A model generated the notes under the pieces. That model saw only the letters and a program-made list of their open reading frames with translations. It was not told the origin of the DNA and ran no database searches. Both the position numbers and the translations under genes were made by a program. From the NCBI GenBank assembly GCA_902525735.1, contig CABZIF010000004.1, positions 1 through 64,000 of the forward strand: a stretch of 64,000 nt of DNA. The letters run 5' to 3'. The DNA is from an uncultured SAR86 cluster bacterium. GTDB lineage: Bacteria > Pseudomonadota > Gammaproteobacteria > Magnimaribacterales > AG-339-G14. This document shows, piece after piece, positions 26,283 through 31,033 of this stretch (position 1 is its first letter; each line of letters begins with the position of its first letter).

Positions 26283-27323
26283 ATGACTCGCTGGTCATCA
26301 AAAAAAATAAATGAATGGTACTCTGAACATGAGTGGTTAATCGGATCAAATTTTTTACCTAGCACTGCAATAAATCAATTGGAAATGTTTCAAAGTGAAA
26401 CATTTGATGAAAAAACAATCAGAAAAGAATTGGGCTTAGCAAAGTCATTGGGATTTAACTCTATGAGAGTTTACTTACATGATCTTCTTTGGGACATAAA
26501 GAATGAATTTTTGATTAACTTTGAAAAATTTCTTTCAATCTGTGAAGAGAATAATATTAAACCAATTATTGTTTTATTTGACGACTGTCACAGAGCAAAT
26601 CCTAAACTAGGTGCTCAATATCTTCCTGTTAAAGGAATTCATAATTCAGGCTGGAGCCAAAGCCCTGGTCATAAAATTGTAAAAGATATTAATGATGGAT
26701 GCTTGTCAGAATTAAAGAGATTGAAATATTTTACACAAGGGGTTTTGGATTTATTTAGGCATGATCGAAGGATTTTGCTTTGGGATTTATACAACGAACC
26801 TGGTCAATTTGGAATTGGAGAACAATCATTAAATTTTTTAAAGCTTGTTTGGGATTGGGCATTCGAAGTAAGGCCGGATCAACCTTTGACAAGCTGTATG
26901 GATGGCTCGATTGGAGAAAAGATTATAGCTTTAAATAGCGAAAAGTCTGATGTAATCACTTTCCATACTTACGAAGCAGATAAACTTGAACCAACTATTA
27001 AAGAATTATCTATTTTTGACAGACCAATTATTTGTACAGAATACATGGCCAGAGAATTTGGAACTACTTTTGAATTTAGTTTGCCTATTTTTAAAAAACA
27101 TAATGTGGGTTGTTATAATTGGGGTTTTGTAGCTGGCAAAAGTCAAACGCATTTTGGTTGGGAGACAATTTTGAAATTGAAAGAATCAGTTGAAAATAAA
27201 GATTTTGTTACTGATATTAGAGAAATTCCAGAGCCAAAAATTTGGTTTCATGACATTTATAGAATGGATGGAAGCCCCTTCGATCAAAAAGAAGTTGATT
27301 TTATAAAAAATTTTTTAAGTTAA
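26283..27323 (+). CDS. GH5-like glycoside hydrolase (clan GH-A), cytoplasmic
   Basis: A 346-residue (beta/alpha)8 protein of the GH5/clan A type. It shows FNSMRVYLHDLLW near 58, a histidine in FDDCHRANP near 103, the acid/base Glu172 in LLWDLYNEPG, FHTYEAD near 227 and the nucleophile candidate Glu253 in IICTEYMARE. Such proteins are often labelled beta-xylanase or mannanase, but the exact substrate is not readable from sequence. There is no signal peptide, so it would act inside the cell on imported or recycled sugars. Its stop codon shares a TTAA with that of the esterase on the other strand. Confidence 0.75.
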   Translation: MTRWSSKKINEWYSEHEWLIGSNFLPSTAINQLEMFQSETFDEKTIRKELGLAKSLGFNSMRVYLHDLLWDIKNEFLINFEKFLSICEENNIKPIIVLFDDCHRANPKLGAQYLPVKGIHNSGWSQSPGHKIVKDINDGCLSELKRLKYFTQGVLDLFRHDRRILLWDLYNEPGQFGIGEQSLNFLKLVWDWAFEVRPDQPLTSCMDGSIGEKIIALNSEKSDVITFHTYEADKLEPTIKELSIFDRPIICTEYMAREFGTTFEFSLPIFKKHNVGCYNWGFVAGKSQTHFGWETILKLKESVENKDFVTDIREIPEPKIWFHDIYRMDGSPFDQKEVDFIKNFLS

Positions 27324-28315
27324 TTTTTAATCTTTAGCTTTTCAAAAATTTTATATATCTCTTCAGCGGTGTTGATATCATTTACGTTGCCGCCAAAGAA
27401 TGAGCTGTATTTAACATTTGGAGAGGCATAAATATGTCCTCCATTTACTAAAGTATAGAGGGCAACAATTTTACTTCCGATAACATCTTTTTTTGTTACT
27501 GAACTATTTAAATTTTCGTCTCTTTCAGGAAGAATTTTAAAATTTTCTTCTTCAAAAGATGATAAATCTCTCCAATATTTATAAGATTCTTCAGAAGAAA
27601 TCACTTCTCCCCTGCTATCGTTTCCAAGTAACGACACCAAACCTCCATTGAATGGATTTATCGGATCATTTGTTCCATTAAAAATTGCCATATTTACTTC
27701 TACTTCAGAAATATCACAGTCGTTATTATTTTTAATAGGGAGATTTGCTACTAGAGGAGCATGCAGAAAAGTGCTATTTGGAATCTCATATGCAAGTTTG
27801 TAAACCATATGACCGCCATTAGAAATTCCCGTGGAGATAATATTATTTTTATTAATTCCAAAGTCTTTCTCAATTAAATTTATTACTTTTTTGTAATATC
27901 CAATGTCGTCGACATCTTTTAGATTTGCTTCGTAGTCTGCTGAGCCTCTGCAATCGTTCCAAAAATTTTTATAACCTTGAGGATATACAACGAGAAATCC
28001 TTTTTCTTGAGCTAAATATTCAAAATCAAATCCTGTTGCACCTCTCATCCCCGCGGATGTTCCATAAGATCCATGAAAAATAAAAAAAACTGGAGCGTTT
28101 TTCTTAAGTGAATCTGGCACAAAGACATCAAAAGTTCTATCAAGATTATCGTGAGTGAGAGAGTAGCTTTTGAGTTTTCCTTGAGCAGGTTCAGGTCTTA
28201 AAATCTCTATATTGATGTAATGATTGAGAAAAGTTACAGATAGAAATGATCCTAAAATAATTCCAAAAATAAATATAAAAAATTTTGAAGAGAGGCTTTT
28301 TTTGAAAAAATTCAT
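27320..28315 (-). CDS. Membrane-anchored PHB-depolymerase/LpqC-like esterase
   Basis: A 331-residue alpha/beta hydrolase of the esterase-PHB type. Residues about 11-31 form a membrane anchor, so the catalytic part faces the periplasm. The oxyanion segment FFIFHGSYGTS is near residue 76, VVYPQGYKNFW near 108, the nucleophilic serine sits in STGISNGGHMVY near 162, an acid candidate in FNGTNDPINPF near 212, and the histidine in VNGGHIYASP near 295. Substrates may be short polyesters or feruloyl-type esters. It is last in the minus-strand run; its ATG overlaps the stop of a 29-residue peptide gene by one base (TAATG). Confidence 0.8.
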   Translation of the reverse strand: MNFFKKSLSSKFFIFIFGIILGSFLSVTFLNHYINIEILRPEPAQGKLKSYSLTHDNLDRTFDVFVPDSLKKNAPVFFIFHGSYGTSAGMRGATGFDFEYLAQEKGFLVVYPQGYKNFWNDCRGSADYEANLKDVDDIGYYKKVINLIEKDFGINKNNIISTGISNGGHMVYKLAYEIPNSTFLHAPLVANLPIKNNNDCDISEVEVNMAIFNGTNDPINPFNGGLVSLLGNDSRGEVISSEESYKYWRDLSSFEEENFKILPERDENLNSSVTKKDVIGSKIVALYTLVNGGHIYASPNVKYSSFFGGNVNDINTAEEIYKIFEKLKIKN

Positions 28316-28404
28316 TAAGCAATAAATATTAAATAATAAGTCGTTCCAATAAACCCTAAAGATATACCGAAAATAAGGAAGAGACTTAATTTCAATATTT
28401 TCAT
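28315..28404 (-). CDS. 29-residue membrane micropeptide, translationally coupled at both ends
   Basis: Between the two hydrolase genes lies a frame of 29 codons plus stop. Its ATG shares one base with the stop of the upstream dienelactone-hydrolase-like gene, and its TAA shares one base with the ATG of the downstream esterase, so both junctions read TAATG. The peptide starts MKILKLSLFLIFGISLG and is hydrophobic almost to its end, which fits a single membrane helix with two lysines inside. Two perfect overlaps make chance unlikely. It may partner the membrane-anchored esterase, whose anchor has a similar IFGIILG pattern; that role is inference. Confidence 0.65.
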   Translation of the reverse strand: MKILKLSLFLIFGISLGFIGTTYYLIFIA

Positions 28405-29330
28405 TAAGACAAATTATTTTTTAAGAAATTAATGCTGTCTTTAAAAGATGACTTTCTTGCATTCCAATTTCTTCCAAGGGAAGCCCCGATTGGTGCAGAG
28501 CCAGATTCAATCAATTTAAGTCTGCCTTCTGGTGTATTCATCTCGAATCTTTCTCCAGAATCACTTTCATAATATAAGTTTCCATTTTTATCGATCTTGC
28601 TTGGCTTATTGCTGAGTGCAATTGCATCAGGAAGGAATTTTACTGGATCCACTCTATCAAAAGAATGGTGGCTATTTTCATAAAGAATAACTGAACTATT
28701 TCCTCCAGACTCATTAATAGCTTTGGATAAATTTTCTATTAAAATCGAAGGAGTATAATCATCATCTTTTCCGATTAGACTGAGTATGGGATTCTTGTTC
28801 CATCTCATTTCTTCAGGCCAAACATAAGCACCGGGATAAAAAGCTAAAAAACCTTTAAATCTCTCTCCGTTTGGAGCTAATTTTTCAGCTAGTGGCTCCC
28901 AAGCGGCATATACTGCAGTTGACCCGCCAAAACTCCAACCTGCAATAAAAATGTTGTTTTTTTGAATTTTTGGGTGATGAGATAGATGTTTTAAAGCTTC
29001 GTAACAATCGGTAAGTGACATAGAAACTGTAACCTGCATTTGATCTTGATAAATTGTTTTTACATTCCTAGACTCAAAACTATGAACCTTGAAAATTGCA
29101 AAGCCATTTTCTAAAAAATTGATAGAGTGATCTTGTGAACTAATCCCCCATCCCATACTGCCATGCATACATATCACGAGCGGATAAGAATCCTTTTTTT
29201 CTTCTGGAAGAATCAAGGTCCCAAACGCCTGATGAATTTCTTGTTTGGTTGAATTTAATATATCTGTGAACTCAAATGGACTGGCTGACTCATAAAAGAA
29301 GTCTCCTTCTTCATTTTGAGAAAAATTCAT
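28404..29330 (-). CDS. Dienelactone-hydrolase-like alpha/beta hydrolase
   Basis: A 308-residue soluble alpha/beta hydrolase. The visible triad is the serine in AGWSFGGSTAVY near 146, the aspartate in GKDDDYTPS near 198 and the histidine in YENSHHSFDRV near 227; the oxyanion strand is LVICMHGSMGW near 51. The protein resembles dienelactone hydrolase family members, which open lactones or cleave small esters. After the fold there is a C-terminal tail with YYESDSGERFEMNTPEG. It lies 7 bases after the CmcJ-like gene and is coupled to the micropeptide downstream. The substrate is unknown. Confidence 0.78.
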   Translation of the reverse strand: MNFSQNEEGDFFYESASPFEFTDILNSTKQEIHQAFGTLILPEEKKDSYPLVICMHGSMGWGISSQDHSINFLENGFAIFKVHSFESRNVKTIYQDQMQVTVSMSLTDCYEALKHLSHHPKIQKNNIFIAGWSFGGSTAVYAAWEPLAEKLAPNGERFKGFLAFYPGAYVWPEEMRWNKNPILSLIGKDDDYTPSILIENLSKAINESGGNSSVILYENSHHSFDRVDPVKFLPDAIALSNKPSKIDKNGNLYYESDSGERFEMNTPEGRLKLIESGSAPIGASLGRNWNARKSSFKDSINFLKNNLS

Positions 29331-29337
29331 TTTTGAT

Positions 29338-30138
29338 TTAATTAAAAAAACAGATGGCTCTGACTTCTAAACTCATTCTTGGAGACACATCTTTACCCTC
29401 GAAAGATATATCGTCAAAAGCGCTATGAAGAGTTGGCATAAAAGGATTCAAAGTTGAATCATAGGTTTTAAACATTAAAACCTCATCTCTATTCATTTTT
29501 GGATAATAATTCCATTCGTGCTTGTCGCTATGAGAAGATTGAAATATCTCAACTGTCAAAGAATCTTCTTGATCCTCTAAATAATTATGAAGATCTGTAG
29601 GAATTAATTCTTTCTCAGAAACGGTTCTGGAATCGCAGACTGCAAAAGGAGCGTCTAAACCGTCCTTATCAAATCTTCTCCAAAGATTAAAAACCATTAT
29701 TTTTGATGGGTTGCTATTAGTTTCTTGGAGGAGGGGTTCAAGAGTGTTTTTAAAATTTGGTGTGAAATCGTTATGGACTAATCTGTGTGCACCTTTTCTT
29801 TCACCTGACTCTACTTGAGCCTCGTTTCTAGAAATATGCGAGACTATATGAACCTCATCCGCCTTTGTTTTATCTTTAACTAATTTAGTCATTTCAGGAT
29901 AATAGATCTGAGAAACCTCGTTGTCATCAAAGAAATCTTTAACAGAAGATTTGTGACTTAATAATTCAAATCCTCCCATCTCAATCTTGAAATCTTTTAA
30001 TCTTGCGTTTTGTATAATTTTTTTATAAGAACTATGATTTGGCATCGAAGGGTCTTCCTCTTGCAAACCAAACGCTGGTTTTGACTCCCCTTCTTTCAGA
30101 GGATTTCTATAATTAAAATAAGCTTCTATTTTTTCCAT
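29338..30138 (-). CDS. CmcJ/NvfI-family putative 2-oxoglutarate-dependent oxygenase
   Basis: This 266-residue protein has the pattern of the CmcJ/NvfI (AsaB-like) family. It has HRLVHNDFTP with a His122-x-Asp124 metal pair, VFNLWRRF near 150, DAPFAVCDSRTVSEKEL near 162-178, WNYYPKMNRDEVLMFKTYDS near 209-228, then His238 and a final PRMSLEVRAICFF with two arginines. Fungal and bacterial members take part in secondary metabolism, such as cephamycin methoxylation and novofumigatonin synthesis. No partner gene of those pathways is seen here. The reaction is unassigned. It sits between PAP2 and hydrolase genes in the packed run. Confidence 0.72.
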   Translation of the reverse strand: MEKIEAYFNYRNPLKEGESKPAFGLQEEDPSMPNHSSYKKIIQNARLKDFKIEMGGFELLSHKSSVKDFFDDNEVSQIYYPEMTKLVKDKTKADEVHIVSHISRNEAQVESGERKGAHRLVHNDFTPNFKNTLEPLLQETNSNPSKIMVFNLWRRFDKDGLDAPFAVCDSRTVSEKELIPTDLHNYLEDQEDSLTVEIFQSSHSDKHEWNYYPKMNRDEVLMFKTYDSTLNPFMPTLHSAFDDISFEGKDVSPRMSLEVRAICFFN

Positions 30139-30169: not shown

Positions 30170-31033
30170 CTAGACTAACTTAAGCTTGGTCCATATTGTC
30201 GGGATCAACCAAGTGACTATTAGCGAGAAAGTTATTCCAAGAACATAACTAACTAATACACCAATAATTCCCTGAACTGTAATTGCTTCATTGATGTTAC
30301 TGATGACCATCATAGTTATAAAAACTAGAATAGTGCTTATCAAAACAACTGGGATCTTAATAAGTTCAGATTTATTTATTTCAATATCGGAAGCAAATAC
30401 ATACCAGCCAAACATCACACCCAAAAACCAAGCACTCGGCTCATGGTCAATATGTGTTGGATAGGATATATAATAAATAATTTGTGAAAACAATATTGCA
30501 ACTATCCATGTTTTATTGTTTAAAAGATCGTTAAATTTATAAATAGTTGCTGAGTACCATATTGCTAAAATTATTATTCCAATTAAAAGTCCAGCAAAAA
30601 CATCTCCGATGTCGTGGACACCAAGATACATTCTGCTAAAAGAAACTAATCCGATCATCAAAATGCAAAAAGTAGTGAGCCAGTTTTTTTTAAATTCTAT
30701 AGCAATTAAGCCCCATAAAGTCACAGCTATTTGAGCATGCCCGCTTGGCCAACCATAAGATTGTCCAATCCTAGGATCAAGCATAAATTCCATTGCGGGT
30801 CTTGGGTCTTGAAAATAATCCTTCAAAAACCCATTTATCAAACCTGAAATAAACAGCAACATTGCAATTCTAGAAAATTTTTCTGGAGACCAGTAAAAAT
30901 ATCCAAACGAAAGGAATAAAATTAAAAAAGTTGGGTATCCTGCCAATGAAACCAAATCAAAAAATATATTTAAAAAAGGAGTTCTTAAATCTAAAACCCA
31001 TGATAAATCATTCCACAAAGATACAACTTCCAT
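30170..31033 (-). CDS. PAP2-family membrane phosphatase
   Basis: A 287-residue integral membrane protein with the type 2 phosphatidic acid phosphatase signature: KDYFQDPRP near 68, WPSGHAQIAVTLWG near 95 and SRMYLGVHDIGDVFAG near 133, giving the three catalytic motifs with both histidines. Around seven hydrophobic segments are present, with a longer C-terminal membrane part than in simple PgpB-type enzymes. Likely substrates are lipid phosphates, such as undecaprenyl or isoprenyl diphosphate. It lies 3 bases after the PhyH-like gene in the packed minus-strand run. Confidence 0.82.
   Translation of the reverse strand: MEVVSLWNDLSWVLDLRTPFLNIFFDLVSLAGYPTFLILFLSFGYFYWSPEKFSRIAMLLFISGLINGFLKDYFQDPRPAMEFMLDPRIGQSYGWPSGHAQIAVTLWGLIAIEFKKNWLTTFCILMIGLVSFSRMYLGVHDIGDVFAGLLIGIIILAIWYSATIYKFNDLLNNKTWIVAILFSQIIYYISYPTHIDHEPSAWFLGVMFGWYVFASDIEINKSELIKIPVVLISTILVFITMMVISNINEAITVQGIIGVLVSYVLGITFSLIVTWLIPTIWTKLKLV

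Follow-up and report, generated by a model that had tools for sequence, protein, structure and literature searches.

The stretch of DNA analysed here (hereafter the window; 64,000 nucleotides from an uncultured SAR86 cluster bacterium) contains, on the minus strand at positions 28315–28404, a gene of 29 codons that encodes a membrane peptide with a single helix (MKILKLSLFLIFGISLGFIGTTYYLIFIA). The frame is a genuine gene, a question that is decided by conservation, as homologues were found in related genomes and dN/dS is mostly well below 1. It represents a new small-protein family, confirmed here, which in these searches is restricted to SAR86 and has a fixed enzyme partner, and at its site ahead of a membrane-anchored esterase it is easily overlooked. 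The favoured reading, which is considered probable, is that this genuine gene encodes a single-pass membrane peptide with its N-terminus inside, acting as a dedicated accessory subunit of the downstream esterase.

The frame and its junctions

The peptide is read from an ATG at 28404–28402 to a TAA at 28317–28315, the plus strand of the same interval being interrupted by stops. At its upstream end, the overlap with the stop of a hydrolase gene forms a TAATG (28402–28406, minus strand) in which base 28404 serves both as the last base of the hydrolase stop and as the A of the peptide ATG. At its downstream end, the overlap of the peptide TAA (28315–28317, minus strand) with the esterase ATG forms a second TAATG, base 28315 being shared as the last A of the one and the A of the other. 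Both one-base overlaps reported in the first-pass annotation are therefore present exactly as described there.

The same annotation considered that two such overlaps and a membrane-helix composition were unlikely by chance, and with regard to the overlaps this holds. Gaps of matching composition were simulated and searched for frames of at least 15 codons that begin at a TAATG and overlap the next start by 1 or 4 bases, and a doubly coupled frame arose by chance in 26 of 400,000; within the window, the peptide frame is the sole one of its kind among five co-directional gaps of 40–400 bases. The hydrophobic composition alone is weaker evidence, because 307 of the 3,852 distinct frames of 20–60 aa in the fetched loci (∼8%) also reach a Kyte-Doolittle value of 1.6 over 19 residues. 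The maximum over 19 residues is 2.00–2.80 in the peptide family (one member from each of four lineages), and with 29 codons here, 27–38 in relatives and one hydrophobic helix, the family lies within the range of short single-helix proteins (fewer than about 50 codons). The window's peptide carries a GxxxG motif at residues 13–17 and YYLIF at residues 23–27. No Shine-Dalgarno sequence was seen by eye before either the peptide or the esterase start of the window, where an SD-like 4-mer precedes 14 of 60 genes and the majority are without one.

Conservation and selection

The frame is intact in five of the eight genomes of the window's genus (G000, G001, G002, G007 and G003), with identities of 100, 100, 93, 79, and 72%, respectively, and with no indel and no stop, so that the frameshifts or stops in close relatives that had been named beforehand as evidence against a gene were found in none of the five genomes of the genus carrying it. 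The coupling is retained across the genus despite codon changes: the peptide-esterase junction is TAATG in G000, G001, G002 and G007 and TGATG in G003, and the junction with the upstream gene is TAATG or TGATG in four of the genomes and a four-base ATGA overlap in G003.

Between G000 and G003, the peptide gene has 5 differences at first, 5 at second and 16 at third codon positions (dN/dS 0.08), and dN/dS is 0.20 between G000 and G007 and 0.06–0.32 for peptide pairs of a second genus, g3. The comparison of G000 with G002 (dN/dS 0.58; re-placement P 0.73) is uninformative because only three substitutions separate them. When the observed substitutions were re-placed at random in 11 pairs chosen from the 20 within-genus pairs, amino-acid changes were below expectation in nine of the 11 (P ≤ 0.016); G015 and G037, separated by six substitutions, gave P 0.06. 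The catalytic part of the esterase shows dN/dS of 0.09–0.13 (six pairs) and its anchor 0.09–0.29, with 0.99 in one pair that has hardly any changes. Across six pairs, the peptide value is lower than that of the anchor in four and higher in two (G000/G002 and G000/G007), and in the better-diverged pairs it is of the same order as that of the catalytic part. These findings show selection on the peptide frame at the level of the protein in two genera, and the expectation of the first-pass annotation that the same frame should recur in relatives with synonymous-biased changes was borne out twice, once within the window's genus and once, as an independent case, within g3.

Counterparts in other SAR86 genera

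In three other SAR86 genera (seven more genomes), the same esterase is directly preceded by a counterpart of the peptide frame, which has 27 codons in g3 (five genomes; MLKNFLISFLGLIIGLVIGGYYFIFIY and close variants), 29 in G200 and 38 in G040. The peptide contains GxxxG in 12 of the 12 genomes, and YYxIF in most, G040 being without it. In an alignment of 10 of the 12 peptides, leaving out G001 (identical to G000) and G036, residues G13, G17 and Y24 are invariant in all 10 rows and L4, Y23, I26 and F27 nearly so.

As an independent test of homology, an HMM built from the five peptides of the window's genus alone was run on the 3,852 short frames. The equivalent-position peptides of G200 (1.2e-4), G018, G037 and G021 ranked above every decoy, those of G036 and G015 were at decoy level, and that of G040 was not among the best 18 matches listed. 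A family profile run over the 203 genomes of the order gave strong matches in the same 12 genomes that carry the esterase, the scores of the G200, G040 and g3 members being by construction since they were used to build it, and no full-length match in the other 191; the next match (E 0.002) covers 14 positions inside a 322-residue frame.

The double one-base TAATG overlap is confined to the window's genus. A TAATG, TGATG or ATGA at the peptide-esterase junction was found in six of the 12 genomes, the ATGA being that of G040, and the overlap is not universal, since a gap of 9–12 nt separates the two genes in G200 and g3. An SD-like GGAGG was seen by eye before the esterase in some g3 members, together with a 12-nt gap. 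At L084, L057–L061 and L079 (g3 and G200), the esterase continues the frame of the peptide after a stop and 9–12 nt, and in the window's genus the two frames differ. A general readthrough fusion was considered and rejected, the frame being the same in six genomes (five g3 and G200) and different in the window's genus and G040.

Co-occurrence with the esterase

The esterase is present in 12 of the 203 genomes of the order (E ≤ 1e-40), and a short hydrophobic frame lies directly upstream of it in 12 of 12; there is no case of the peptide without the esterase in the 203 genomes. These carriers correspond to about four independent lineages. Natural empty sites exist for two of them. In g3, genes that we take to be rlmN and pssA from their sequences are separated by 16 nt in five genomes that have no cassette and by about 1.1 kb in the two carriers checked; rlmN was located in six genomes, of which L121 (G012) is without pssA in the stretch examined, hence an empty site in five of six. 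In the window's genus, the dienelactone hydrolase (DLH) gene at L035 and L036 runs straight to its convergent neighbor, without peptide and esterase. This shows that peptide and esterase are gained or lost together as a two-gene cassette, which identifies the downstream esterase as the partner and leaves the upstream hydrolase as a bystander. The esterase is the one partner gene with which the peptide occurs in all 12 genomes, and the partnership with the anchored esterase that the first-pass annotation had thought possible is supported by both co-occurrence and co-loss, a physical interaction being what we infer from them.

The cassette at 27320–28404 and its equivalent at L084:4455–5519 are each about 1.1 kb and lie between tail-to-tail genes in two genera, in both of which the esterase stop overlaps the stop of the neighbor by four bases. 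Among the listed neighbors of the cassette, no genes of mobile elements were noticed.

The upstream gene (28404–29330, minus strand; 308 aa) is dienelactone-hydrolase-like (Pfam DLH 1.6e-11) and has no hydrophobic N-terminus by eye. It was rejected as partner and lies outside the system, being present without the cassette at L035 and L036 and replaced by other genes in other genera. The upstream neighbors in the four contexts are the DLH gene, an rlmN-like gene, a divergent gene and what is presumably a lipase-like gene. Further upstream, at 29338–30138, is a CmcJ/NvfI-family oxidoreductase (NCBIfam NF041278, 197 bits vs. a cut-off of 80) beside PAP2 and PhyH-like genes of the same run, an unexpected enzyme of secondary-metabolism type in a streamlined marine genome. 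The PAP2 gene (30170–31033 of the window) is apparently missing from G002, where about 326 nt lie between its neighbors (L090:3946–4272).

The downstream esterase

The esterase gene (27320–28315, minus strand) encodes a helix-anchored alpha/beta hydrolase of 331 aa that is similar to PHB depolymerases and feruloyl esterases. Its likeness to this family lies in profile matches to the PDB entries 9j07 (feruloyl esterase, 5.7e-13), 8daj (PHB depolymerase family esterase, 5.6e-9) and 8iy8, and presumably also in the GxSxGG, D and H motifs, from which we take S165, D217 and H294 to be the likely catalytic residues. It differs from the family in its N-terminal helix anchor and in scores below the family cut-offs (TIGR01840, 40 vs. 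107.85; NF050058, 76.8 vs. 150; BD-FAE, 19.8 vs. 26.8 bits), and by the TIGR01840, NF050058 and Pfam cut-offs it falls outside the PHB depolymerase family. The alignment comprised eight of the 12 esterases, the L079 row including two residues upstream of the start, and the structure predicted from five alignment rows is too poor a model, with a mean pLDDT of 48.8. At L060 (G018) the esterase start is apparently TTG, the sister genomes having ATG.

No relative of the esterase was found on viral contigs, and among the matches examined in the class and phylum samples no esterase outside SAR86 exceeded about 33% identity. The best outside relatives are from six genomes of one family (E about 1e-60), with two weaker ones and three more in the other sample, and none has a comparable peptide upstream. 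The distant anchored esterases of those six genomes are without a peptide, which indicates that enzymes of this fold can in general do without one, and those inspected by eye have no GxxxG anchor, which together fits the idea of pairing set out below. Nine SAR86 esterases at 24–27% identity (L062–L070) likewise have no upstream peptide with the motif of the peptide family; a single unrelated 25-codon TTG frame lies upstream of that at L062.

The anchor of the window's esterase has its GxxxG at residues 18–22. Across the carriers, the anchor contains [GS]xxxG in 12 of 12 and GxxxG in seven, the g3 form being SxxxG, and this motif and the GxxxG of the peptide lie at a similar depth in their helices. 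The N-terminal lysines predict an N-in, C-out orientation for both. By way of background, GxxxG occurs in seven of 45 N-terminal hydrophobic segments and small-xxx-small in 23 of the 45, and such small-residue motifs are thus frequent in helices, which weakens the argument from the motif. The glycine likeness between peptide and anchor that had been pointed out earlier is thus real in the form of a common [GS]xxxG motif, and the motif pattern, as far as sequence can indicate, supports a pairing of the two helices.

Possible roles of the peptide

As a conserved gene that comes and goes with the esterase, the peptide gene probably encodes a small partner subunit of this enzyme. In the window's genus, ribosomes finishing the peptide may re-initiate at the esterase start within the TAATG, and such re-initiation would lead to the peptide and anchor helices being made side by side. 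The two helices could pack through their small-residue (GxxxG) faces, and the resulting pair would stabilize, position or oligomerize the periplasm-facing esterase at the inner membrane. Coupling by termination and re-initiation requires short overlaps, and these are reported to be overrepresented among genes for subunits of heteromeric complexes (PMC10666635). More tentatively, and with somewhat less confidence than would make it the expected outcome, SAR86 may possess an unrecognized cassette of an anchored esterase and an obligate helix-peptide subunit of 27–38 residues, in which the anchor would be a helix pair and which would pass between genomes as a whole, entering tail-to-tail gene junctions in two genera.

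It is unlikely that the frame is translated mainly for its effect in cis, by delivering ribosomes to the esterase start or as a leader stalling at its C-terminus, with a dispensable product. Such an arrangement would suit the overlapping junctions (TAATG, TGATG or ATGA) in half of the 12 genomes, the conserved YYxIF at the C-terminus beside the stop, and the lack of a visible Shine-Dalgarno sequence before the window's peptide and esterase, although just 14 of 60 window genes have an SD-like 4-mer. Against it, protein-level conservation reaches the mid-helix GxxxG, the g3 esterase has a 12-nt gap and, in some members by eye, its own SD-like GGAGG, and G040 is without the YYxIF ending. Neither an attenuation hairpin nor the unusual junction RNA structure of a leader (arrest) peptide was found, z being −1.63, −1.59, −0.11, and −0.70 in four genomes, and a purely cis-acting frame is disfavored.

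Many known single-helix peptides of 25–40 aa act on other targets, and the peptide could likewise be a small membrane protein in its own right, acting in stress or as a modulator of the membrane, whose gene simply shares a transcript with that of the esterase. The 27-aa YohP, which is reported to self-dimerize through a transmembrane glycine (PMC7549839), offers a precedent, but the peptide is never found without the esterase in the 203 order genomes, and the two come and go jointly at two sites that are unrelated, which makes independence improbable as well.

With regard to origin, which is compatible with a role as subunit, there is little likelihood that the peptide gene arose by duplication of the part of the esterase gene that encodes the anchor helix. 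The two do share a layout of N-terminal positive charge, GxxxG about 7–8 residues into the helix and an aromatic end, and the G040 anchor scores 9.0 bits with the genus-peptide HMM vs. 7.0 for the best unrelated frame. The other 11 anchors, however, score below 0 bits with that HMM, and a g3 HMM gives the G040 anchor 11.1, equal to the best unrelated frame (11.0), so that these sequence scores do not support a shared ancestor for the two, except weakly for this one genome. Lastly, a chance open frame in AT-rich DNA, for which the similar hydrophobicity of about 8% of short frames might speak, is refuted by the substitution pattern in two genera and also conflicts with the ranking of homologues above decoys, the invariable co-occurrence and the simulated gaps, leaving it almost no probability.

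Comparison with known systems

The peptide has no NCBIfam or PDB match, and its Pfam and PHROG matches are weak (best E 0.022 and 0.052, from one of 10 members each). In the titles and abstract openings of the literature on SAR86 small proteins, esterases and depolymerases there is nothing on this pair, and a global catalogue of small frames may contain this frame unnamed (PMC11364881). No part of the bacterial proteome is charted less well than the proteins under 50 residues. SAR86, which is free-living, is among the most abundant uncultured groups of the surface ocean. Whilst absent from the libraries searched, this well-supported peptide family has a named partner, four lineages, the conserved residues G13, G17 and Y24, and natural empty-site controls, and its function is therefore directly testable.

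In its presumed working, the peptide appears by analogy to resemble accessory peptides of the CydX type, and like CydX, KdpF and AcrZ it is conserved as a protein, as evidenced by dN/dS and the re-placement test in two genera; there is no sequence match placing it in the CydX, KdpF or AcrZ families proper, and it belongs to no named family. The cydX gene lies downstream of its partner genes. CydX (37 aa, cytochrome bd oxidase) is likewise a single-helix peptide encoded in the operon of its enzyme; its sequence is highly variable with few fixed residues, and it accompanies one form of the partner (PMC4325964). Its partner, however, is a multi-pass respiratory complex, whereas here the partner is an esterase with a single anchor helix and the peptide gene is upstream; no sequence relation between the two peptides was found. 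KdpF (29 aa, of the Kdp K+ ATPase) and AcrZ (of the AcrB pump) are also tiny single-helix partners of a membrane protein, but those partners are transport machines and neither peptide matches this one in sequence. The gene for YohP stands alone. At 27 aa and with one membrane helix associating through glycine, YohP is similar in size and in its manner of association, but it is described as a homodimer and without a GxxxG (PMC7549839). In the SAR86 peptide there is thus a case of a helix peptide linked to an esterase that has a single anchor helix, and not to a multi-pass transporter or oxidase.
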